Source: Arthrobacter sp. AQ5-06
GTDB lineage: Bacteria > Actinomycetota > Actinomycetes > Actinomycetales > Micrococcaceae
DNA: 64,000 bases
Assembly: GCF_003287955.1 (NCBI RefSeq)
Contig: NZ_QMKP01000006.1
Span: forward strand, 1-64,000
Direction of reading: 5' to 3'
A program made the position numbers and the translations under genes. Below are positions 2,482-8,461 of the stretch, in pieces. Numbering within the stretch: position 1 is the first letter of the stretch; the number at the start of each line of letters is the position of its first letter. The notes below the pieces were generated by a model. That model was not told where the DNA came from and searched no databases. It saw nothing but the letters and a program-made list of their open reading frames with translations.

Positions 2482-3258
2482 TCACCGGAAGGCTCGGGGC
2501 CGCTGTCCTTGATGCGCTGGCAGCGAATCGGTGGCTGCGAGCACCCGCCCGACAGTCGTCTTGGATATGCCGAGGCGCTGCGCGATGGCGCGCTGGCTGA
2601 GCCTCTGCTCTGCCAACTCAAGGACCTTTGCCGGGTCCACTTCCGCACGCATTTTCGGGGTGGTTTCTGGGTGGTCTTTTAGTTGGTCCATCCCTGGTCC
2701 ATTTGCTGGTCCACCCAGTGGTCCTTTTTGTGGTCCACCCGAGGTGGTCCACTGGTCCTTTGGGTGATTTATCTGGTCCGCGCGGACCACCTGATCCCTT
2801 GCCCGCTTCCGTCGCTGGGCCACCGATCCGTGCGCCGGCGCCACCACCAGGTTCACTGTCGTCTCAGTCGCGAAGAAAAGGCTGATCGGCATGATGGCAG
2901 CCACGAAGGCCCCGACGATCACTGTCGAATCGAGGACTGCCGGCACCCCCTCAGGCGCCAGAACATGGGCGCCGTTGGCGAGGACTGAGACGAGCGTGAA
3001 GAAGCCGACAGCTATCCACGAAAGGGTCGTCGAATCGCCTCGGGCCCTTTGAACACTGGCCGCAACGGCATAAACGAGGATCGTGGAATCGACGACGATC
3101 GGCACCAGCCAGCGCAGATGTTCAGGGATCCCCGCCCACGACGCAGCCTGCATCAGGCCAAAGAATGAGAGGGTGAAGCTCGCCGCGGCCAGGACACCGA
3201 CCAAAGTCAGTGACAGCATCACCATCGTCCGGCTATCTGGCTCGATACGTGAAGTCAT
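2482..3258 (-). CDS. DUF2637 (SpdB-like) membrane protein with C-terminal HTH
   Basis: This 258-residue protein has four membrane helices (about residues 12-38, 46-68, 76-101 and 105-130) that resemble DUF2637/SpdB proteins of actinobacterial conjugative plasmids and integrative elements. A charged linker follows, then a GP-rich repeat (about 160-200, units such as GGP, KGP, LGGP, NGP), then a helix-turn-helix (about 208-245: LSQRAIAQRLGISKTTVGRV). The start at 3258 has a strong GGGAGGAAG site. The GP repeat is encoded by repeated GGACCA, and a second array of that motif lies upstream of the start. Family membership suggests a role in plasmid spreading or transfer; DNA binding is inferred from the HTH. 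Confidence 0.75.
   Translation of the reverse strand: MTSRIEPDSRTMVMLSLTLVGVLAAASFTLSFFGLMQAASWAGIPEHLRWLVPIVVDSTILVYAVAASVQRARGDSTTLSWIAVGFFTLVSVLANGAHVLAPEGVPAVLDSTVIVGAFVAAIMPISLFFATETTVNLVVAPAHGSVAQRRKRARDQVVRADQINHPKDQWTTSGGPQKGPLGGPANGPGMDQLKDHPETTPKMRAEVDPAKVLELAEQRLSQRAIAQRLGISKTTVGRVLAATDSLPAHQGQRPRAFR
2684..2790 (-). repeat. intragenic GGACCA repeat array
   Basis: GGTCC on the plus strand (GGACC on the coding strand) begins at 2685, 2696, 2708, 2720, 2732, 2746, 2754 and 2775, with one inverted copy at 2784. The first steps are 11, 12, 12 and 12 bases, close to one DNA turn. It encodes the GP-rich segment of the DUF2637 protein. Confidence 0.8.
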
Positions 3259-3282
3259 TCGTTCGCTTCCTCCCTCGACGGT

Positions 3283-3407
3283 GGTCCACGTGGACCGCTC
3301 GAAATGCCAGTCTAGGATCGGTCCACGACAATTTGACCTGCGGCAATGGACCACTACGGACCACCGCATGGACCACTAAAGGACCACCTATGTTCCCGGG
3401 TGGACCA
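3283..3407 (+). repeat. upstream GGACCAC repeat array with 14-bp palindrome
   Basis: A perfect palindrome GGTCCACGTGGACC lies at 3283-3296. GGTCCAC follows at 3320, then GGACCA on the plus strand at 3348, 3358, 3370, 3381 and 3402. The steps of 10, 12, 11 and 21 bases keep most copies on one DNA face. The array sits just upstream of the DUF2637 start codon and points opposite to the intragenic array. Confidence 0.8.
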
Positions 3408-7923: not shown

Positions 7924-8286
7924 CTAAACCCCGAGAGTCAACGAATTCCGGGGCAGTCCCGTCCCGGCTTTGTAGCGCCTGAGCGTGTATCCGTTAACAC
8001 CGGTCCGCAGCGCAATATGGTCCTCGATCATACGAGTAACCGTATAGATGCCCTTGAAGTGATCCCTGGCGCTGTTCAGCGCCGCGCCCACGTCGTTGGC
8101 GTGAGCTTTCAAAACCGTCACAAGGAAGTTTGCATCCTGCGCCGAGTCCACCCTTTGAGTGATCTGGTCCTTAGACTCGGGATCCACCCACCTGACGTAG
8201 TGAGCGACCGTACCATCTTTGCGTTTTCTTGAATCTCTGTAAGCCACAAAATCACTATGCGTCGATCCCCCTCGCGGGTGTCGCAT
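7924..8286 (-). pseudogene. tyrosine integrase N-terminal fragment beside tRNA-Leu
   Basis: The 120-residue frame resembles the arm-binding and SAM-like N-terminal domains of actinophage and ICE integrases (RKRKDGTVAHYVRWVDPES, then ALNSARDHFKGIYTVTRMIE). It breaks off without any catalytic R-H-R-Y region. Its position 93 bp from the 3' end of tRNA-Leu fits an element integrated at that tRNA. The ATG at 8286 lies in a hairpin loop, so a downstream GTG may have been the true start. The C-terminal half was probably lost with the adjacent IS3 remnant. Confidence 0.55.
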
Positions 8287-8299
8287 TTCGACACCCGCG
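8273..8299. other. strong palindrome overlapping the integrase start
   Basis: The arms CGCGGGTGTCG and CGACACCCGCG are perfect 11-mers around loop CATTT. Just right of it, a 15-base unit CGCGTGAGTGAARAC occurs at 8296-8310 and 8317-8331, 21 bases apart. It could be recombination arm sites or an operator. Confidence 0.5.
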
Positions 8300-8340
8300 T
8301 GAGTGAAAACGGCCCTCGCGTGAGTGAAGACAGAAAAAAA

Positions 8341-8366
8341 CCCCTAGAATCCTTGGATTCTAGGGG
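8341..8366 (-). terminator. intrinsic terminator of tRNA-Leu
   Basis: The arms CCCCTAGAATCC and GGATTCTAGGGG form a perfect 12-bp stem with a two-base loop. A T run follows on the minus strand (complement of the seven A at 8334-8340). It lies 12 bases beyond the tRNA 3' end. Confidence 0.85.
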
Positions 8367-8378
8367 TTTTCCCATTTG

Positions 8379-8461
8379 TGCGCGGAGGGGGACTTGAACC
8401 CCCACCCCCTTTCGAGGACTAGCACCTCAAGCTAGCGCGTCTGCCATTCCGCCACCCGCGC
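8379..8461 (-). tRNA. tRNA-Leu (anticodon GAG)
   Basis: The 83-nt cloverleaf has acceptor stem GCGCGGG/TCCGCGC (one wobble), an anticodon stem CTAGC/GCTAG with loop TTGAGGT (anticodon GAG), a long variable arm typical of class II tRNAs, and the T-arm sequence GGTTCAAGTCC. The CCA end is not encoded. It marks the right edge of the island and is a plausible integration target, given the integrase fragment next to it. Confidence 0.93.

Follow-up and report, generated by a model that had tools for sequence, protein, structure and literature searches.

In a stretch of 64,000 nucleotides from Arthrobacter sp. AQ5-06 (assembly GCF_003287955.1, contig NZ_QMKP01000006.1, positions 1 to 64,000 of the forward strand; hereafter, the window), a gene for a DUF2637 protein with a C-terminal helix-turn-helix (HTH) is accompanied by a two-armed array of GGACCA units, one arm of which lies within the gene itself. 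This array is conserved, follows a period of 11.5 bp and is selected at the level of the DNA. The explanation favoured here, which stands at about an even chance on the basis of sequence and analogy, is that the array forms a binding locus which serves plasmid maintenance, being autoregulated and tethered to the membrane.

A conserved array selected at the DNA level

Counted on both strands, the window holds 98 copies of GGACCA, and 15 of them start within 2684–3402, where about one would be expected at the window average. GGACCAC reaches 33 copies against a shuffle mean of 13.7 (largest value 25), nine of them inside the interval 2684–3407, and the top 6-mer count in the densest 250 bp is 9, compared with at most 5 in 200 dinucleotide shuffles. 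The coding arm holds gene-strand units at 2684, 2695, 2707, 2719, 2731, 2745, 2753, and 2774, and an inverted unit at 2784, while the upstream arm comprises units at 3348, 3358, 3370, 3381, and 3402, with an opposite-strand unit at 3282 and GGACC variants besides. These positions agree with a first-pass annotation of the same DNA, which had counted about nine copies in the gene and about seven before it, in opposite orientation. When the complete assembly of 4.14 Mb in 70 contigs is scanned for two neighbouring units, the pattern GGACCAN{4,7}GGACC gives 47 matches, compared with 64 for the reversed control; seven of the 47 sit at the array, and the others are scattered save for one overlapping pair on contig C1. 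The whole-genome pattern scan shows the array at 2684–3407 to be the sole cluster with more than three units, and the objection that GGACCAC might be equally frequent throughout the genome, which the annotation itself had anticipated, does not hold, this interval being the only dense cluster.

Conservation was followed in 13 distinct members with at least 50% identity (range 50–100%, the window counted in), which were gathered by protein search from plasmids, phages, 297 relatives, genome contigs, and 395 genomes of the family, and by scanning 206 genomes from the genus for the DNA pattern. Left out of this set were duplicates of the same record (G055=L002, G058=L004, G138=L051, G100=L052, and L317=L053), L318, whose protein is identical to that of L050, the fragments G009 (74% over 70 residues, with two stops and without an array cluster) and G020 (54% over 47 residues), and an array-derived match in G325 (52% over 29 residues). 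The G427 copy was retained despite a frame broken before the HTH, and keeps both arms. Both arms are found in 12 of the 13 members, with 4–11 TGGTCC (gene orientation) per 260 bp upstream and, among the codons of the linker, 5–11 GGACCA. The array thus also withstood the second objection foreseen by the annotation, a lack of conservation in homologues. The thirteenth member, a copy from Sinomonas termed C13, is without GGACCA in either arm. Three members reside on circular plasmids of the Arthrobacter group of 418–440 kb (pACHL01, pYJN5-1, and pPA-B-2242), where the locus is the only array, with 11–12 GGACCR per 300 bp against at most 5 elsewhere. In the genus search, a three-unit match was found in 46 of the 206 genomes, and matches on both strands within 1 kb (read by eye) in eight; in seven of these eight, such a pair sits at a DUF2637-HTH gene.

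Two further two-armed arrays were observed in these genomes. One of them (G103, C1:626595–626870; L085:16595–16870) repeats the GGACCA arms at a distance of about 25 kb from that genome's main array; the gene next to it is weakly HTH-like, and no DUF2637 gene separates the two arms. The other (G325, C1:573834–574083; L309:7840–8100) lies between convergent genes that read as MFS-like and LysR-like.

Among the DUF2637 relatives examined, the arrays are confined to the branch of the window protein. Around the gene of 11 relatives without GGACCA arrays, a repeat test gave nothing significant in 10, including L053, whose diverged motif was missed by this untargeted test; the eleventh, the phage L007, holds a GC-rich repeat (p 0.005). 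The window protein matches 249 plasmid records at a lax limit (E up to 10), chance matches among them, and a peptide-pattern search of IMG/VR viral contigs found no relative of it. The three-unit DNA pattern was unselective in viral contigs, matching at least 120 stretches.

The level at which selection acts is indicated by the codons. When the 12 linkers were redrawn with synonymous codons, keeping the proteins fixed and following the codon usage of 15 neighbouring plasmid genes, the 2000 runs averaged 34.6 GGACCA and never exceeded 47, compared with the 108 observed; an earlier redraw on eight members gave 75 observed against a mean of 26.3 and a maximum of 36. The units of the 12 linkers are distributed over the three reading frames as 46/19/43, and according to the frame they are translated as GP, as DH/DQ, or inside T-containing codons. 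Since all three frames are used and the count exceeds that of every synonymous simulation, it is the DNA that is conserved, and the peptide follows it. The earlier statement that the motif had become a GP-rich peptide repeat is thus right for one frame, but not for the others, with their DH/DQ and T-containing codons. From the start codon to the QRR[KR]R motif, GGACCA and TGGTCC are absent in all 13 members. The best-fit period over 12 members is 11.52 bp in the upstream arm and 11.64 bp in the coding arm, and 10.5 bp has little power, so the sites drift around the helix and do not keep to one face. The helical stepping of mostly 10–12 bases given in the annotation is thereby corrected to a mean spacing of 11.5–11.6 bp, which amounts only loosely to one unit per helical turn.

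A repeat driven by the protein, in which selection or slippage on a GP-rich linker produced the DNA repeats by accident, is scarcely credible in the light of these results. The linker is certainly repetitive and predicted to be disordered, but the use of three frames, the synonymous excess, the unequal spacers, and the matching non-coding arm in opposite orientation all speak against it, and the synonymous-codon test refutes it, unless that test is itself flawed.

The encoded protein and its putative binding sites

The protein belongs to DUF2637 by its match to PF10935 (37.1 bits, cut-off 22.8), and also matches HTH_23 (26.0 bits, cut-off 24.6). Its gene most likely starts at 3258 rather than at the upstream ATG at 3369, because the relatives have at that place a start followed by R-I/L/V-E; with this start, the upstream arm would be non-coding. 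The coordinates of the gene and its associated features are given in Table 1. Sequence does not support the description of the protein as SpdB-like: the pIJ101 SpdB gave no hit in Pfam and showed no real similarity to the window protein, the best BLASTP value being E 0.74 in a single comparison that covered this SpdB and not SpdB2 of pSVH1.

Table 1. Features of the DUF2637-HTH locus in the window.
Feature	Position	Strand	Remarks
Gene for a 258-aa DUF2637 protein with C-terminal HTH	2482–3258	-	PF10935 and HTH_23 matches; start from relatives
HTH, proposed array reader	2527–2634	-	Residues 209–244; Pfam, AlphaFold2
Coding arm	2684–2790	-	8 gene-strand GGACCA units and 1 inverted; residues 157–192; three reading frames
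Predicted membrane part	2767–3234	-	Residues 9–164; four hydrophobic segments, then basic QRRKR; array units only at extreme end
16-bp perfect palindrome TGGTCCGCGCGGACCA	2774–2789		Inner end of coding arm
14-bp perfect palindrome GGTCCACGTGGACC	3283–3296		Leader
-10-like TAGACT	3309–3314	-	Putative promoter; CTAGACTG, or CTACACTG in one member, across 9/9 aligned promoter regions
GGACCGATCC on gene strand	3315–3324		Adjoins the -10; perfect palindrome GGACCGGTCC in 5/12 members
Upstream arm	3348–3407	+	Five GGACCA units, divergent from coding arm

The assignment to the membrane is based on a hydropathy scan, an AlphaFold2 model, and the depositors' labels of phage relatives. The Kyte-Doolittle scan places hydrophobic segments at about residues 10–38, 48–70, 76–101, and 104–135, and the model predicts helices at residues 9–41, 51–72, 78–100, 111–139, and 146–164, a low-confidence stretch at 165–204, and the HTH. 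Mean values of the predicted local distance difference test (pLDDT) of 59.0 from one sequence and 61.5 from five denote modest confidence, and the layout alone was used. In this layout, the coding arm overlaps the tail of the final predicted helix and encodes most of the linker before the HTH, which is predicted to be disordered, and the basic QRRKR following the hydrophobic part would fit a cytoplasmic C-terminus. A Foldseek search against the PDB gave no match at E 0.001 or better, with only weak resemblances to the HTH of resolvases and DeoR. The modelled product is probably a membrane protein that grips DNA.

Inverted pairs of the motif occur around the conserved -10-like sequence and in the coding arm. 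Promoter regions were aligned for 9 of the 13 members. The leader pair GGTCC-4 bp-GGACC is present in 5 of 12, and the coding arm has a pair of this kind at its inner end in 6 of 12. The annotation had listed a single perfect 14-bp palindrome, which is indeed found in the leader, but a longer one of 16 bp exists as well, inside the gene.

Two paralogues from Sinomonas, held by the same genome (G502) and 69% identical to each other, suggest which protein reads the array. The copy on contig C11 has an Arthrobacter-like HTH (LSQREIARRLGISKTTVAR) and GGACCA in both arms (eight upstream, eight in the linker). The C13 copy, a 100% match to the L053 contig from Sinomonas gamaensis, has a changed HTH (MSHREIASELGLSKSSVGR) and carries TGGGGC/GCCCCA where other promoters have GGACC pairs; these promoter positions hold 4 of the locus's 10 TGGGGC/GCCCCA copies, in 160 bp. 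Its linker contains GGGNCA units at 9–13 bp, five in number where simulation gives a mean of 0.62 (p 0.0002). Both of these C13 motifs were picked post hoc, and a k-mer test of the locus that targeted no motif found nothing. Reader and site therefore seem to change together in this one case, as binding by the protein's own HTH predicts, which points to that HTH as the reader. The earlier proposal of operators or iterons for the protein's own HTH is supported, if indirectly.

A proposed maintenance locus and its rivals

Under the favoured explanation, the two arms would constitute one cis-acting binding locus read by the product of the gene that carries it. HTH dimers would occupy the inverted pairs of promoter and leader and repress their own gene. 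They would also extend over the direct repeats in each arm and connect the two arms over the approximately 500 bp that code for the membrane part. As the protein is predicted to sit in the membrane, the complex could tether the replicon to it and so serve plasmid maintenance, either in segregation or in stability, perhaps coupled to transfer. A maintenance locus is favoured because the arrangement resembles that of StbA and ParR, because the placing resembles that of SpdA and lambda O, and because more distant DUF2637 genes have annotated ParA/ParB or replication-initiator genes as neighbours, no more than about 2.1 kb away, in four of the seven plasmids viewed, a non-random sample. A more specific version, in which the nascent membrane protein captures its own gene through the array in its linker codons, resulting in a motor-free cis anchoring to the membrane, is unlikely. 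If it were true, a joint change of HTH and array would create new incompatibility groups, of which the Sinomonas paralogues would perhaps be an instance.

Several observations weigh against a maintenance locus. The motif switch in Sinomonas is a single case with a motif picked afterwards, about half of the members lack intact palindromic pairs, and the count of 5 in G306 does not exceed the maximum of 6 in the simulation for that member. Four phage loci with a similar protein, from Microbacterium phages, are without a GGACCA array, and the array of G325 is without a detectable DUF2637-HTH gene, the protein search having given only the array's own translation. Moreover, the three plasmids carry ParA-domain genes outside the locus, the nearest about 25–32 kb off and others more than 100 kb away, so that there is no evident need for a further maintenance locus, and their annotations show no motor gene next to it. 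On pPA-B-2242, a 200-aa open reading frame after a ParA gene, where ParB was sought, had no Pfam hit.

The main rival is an operator and nothing else, in which the HTH protein would repress its own gene from both arms, by a loop or a roadblock, with the membrane part acting as a sensor and with neither tether nor maintenance. This is possible, if doubtful. It would account for the inverted pairs at the -10 and the leader, for one arm lying upstream and the other inside the gene, and for the homologues in phages near integrase genes (in four records, with the integrase labelled as serine type in three). However, some 15–20 units far exceed the need of a simple repressor, and the two-armed arrays of G103 (at 626.6 kb) and G325, which have no such gene between their arms, also count against it. 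An in-gene iteron replication origin of the lambda O type would likewise explain an array that encodes the stretch between two domains, and agrees with the location of the locus on pPA-B-2242 within about 20 kb of dnaE, a single-stranded DNA-binding protein (SSB) gene, and helicase genes, as well as with the palindromic repeats inside an HTH_36 gene on a plasmid with a more distant DUF2637 gene. Such an origin is nevertheless improbable, considering that the product is a predicted membrane protein with no initiator domain among its Pfam hits, and that the array lies 27–36 kb from the cumulative GC-skew maximum on all three plasmids and hence not at a switch point.

The transfer locus clt lies by the FtsK-like transfer gene traB. 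The annotation had suggested that the array may be such a locus, in which case a TraB/FtsK translocase would bind it in the transfer of double-stranded DNA. All three plasmids do carry FtsK-domain genes, with a CHAP gene near the locus and, on pPA-B-2242, an AAA_10 ATPase gene near it as well. This reading is very improbable, as the FtsK-domain matches above the cut-off are located about 118–124 kb or more from the array on each of the three plasmids, and the motif and the HTH change together in Sinomonas. The plasmid pACHL01 has, in addition, one weak and partial FtsK-domain match, below the cut-off, about 74 kb from the array.

Genomic context and comparison with known systems

Base 1 of the window is base 1 of a 220-kb contig that is probably chromosomal, so that no sequence precedes the window on it, and the locus is apparently a relic or a passenger there. 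A tRNA-Leu gene (8378–8461) lies close to a short open reading frame (7924–8286, no Pfam hit) whose product resembles the beginning of an integrase, the region 7924–8461 being a possible island boundary; a small island or a plasmid relic is therefore the probable setting of the locus. Four window genes just past the upstream arm match no Pfam family over the cut-off.

Other repeats and replication genes were observed on plasmids with DUF2637 genes. On a plasmid of Arthrobacter sp. U41, an HTH_36 gene (L009:6319–7533), the second after the DUF2637 gene, holds in its coding sequence three exact 17-bp palindromes (AGTGCAGAATCTGCACT) and more copies of AGTGCA, and these in-gene sites are spaced alike in L029 and L046; the gene thus holds a further in-gene array, which is perhaps an origin. 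Plasmid p1 of Gordonia hongkongensis has CGTTAC/CGTTGC-type repeats directly upstream of parA (L011:1276–1550, from a k-mer listing), adjoining a distant DUF2637-HTH gene. Near 321–329 kb on pACHL01, near 429–432 kb on pYJN5-1, and near 44–45 kb on pPA-B-2242, the cumulative GC-skew maximum falls within about 8 kb of a large open frame of approximately 700 aa with a ParA-type ATPase domain match. In its regions 1–45000 and 372000–417721, pPA-B-2242 (NZ_CP061722.1, 418 kb) carries dnaE and nrdEFI as well as helicase genes and a gene for a single-stranded DNA-binding protein, a content that seems unusual for a plasmid.

DUF2637 proteins are found on many actinobacterial plasmids and in phages, but the family has no function assigned in Pfam, and a literature search turned up its name in one paper; the locus provides it with a concrete DNA target for testing. 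Here, too, an array is clearly superimposed on codons in all three frames, as the synonymous sites indicate, and its coding and DNA roles are separable by synonymous recoding. If the tether were confirmed, it would represent a membrane-anchored way to keep very large plasmids. A literature search combining membrane-anchored DNA-binding proteins with plasmid segregation returned no paper joining all five terms, which is not proof of absence.

Among known systems, the repeats of clt bound by TraB are of 8 bp (PMC4170104), unlike the 6-bp GGACCA with its 11.5-bp period. In lambda, four 19-bp iterons lie inside the gene of the replication initiator O (PMC3985674), and the two cases share repeats inside the gene of their reader (the latter inferred in our case). 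The locus has an upstream arm as well, and none is described for lambda O/ori in the excerpt of that source used here. SpdA of Streptomyces plasmids is a DNA-binding protein whose sps sites are found in its own coding sequence or, in some plasmids, upstream of it (PMC4170104), and the likeness consists of an array inside the coding sequence of the proposed reader, on actinobacterial plasmids. However, sps comprises two to three copies of a 12-bp palindrome, in contrast to the long phased arms and the predicted membrane protein of the present locus; the palindrome given in that source (CGTCACGTGACG) has no match in the window at up to one mismatch, and the window protein is without SRD and thus without the SRDD/E motif of SpdA.

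Regarding segregation systems, a 22-bp fragment of parC, bound by ParR of plasmid R1, holds two repeats, that is, an 11-bp period (PMC4949242), but ParR/parC has the motor ParM as a partner, and no motor gene adjoins the present locus in the annotations of the three plasmids. StbA of R388 recognises two sets of five 9-bp stbDRs with 2-nt spacers (an 11-bp period) around the promoter of its own operon, and both stbDRs and StbA are needed for plasmid stability, whereas the putative motor StbB is not (PMC3098194). The likeness to this system is one of arrangement, homology not being implied, and comprises two sets of direct repeats with a period of about 11 bp around the promoter of the gene of the inferred reader. 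Unlike the stbDRs, the units described here are of 6 bp and recur every 11.5 bp in divergent arms, one of which lies in coding sequence, and their reader is predicted to be a membrane protein.
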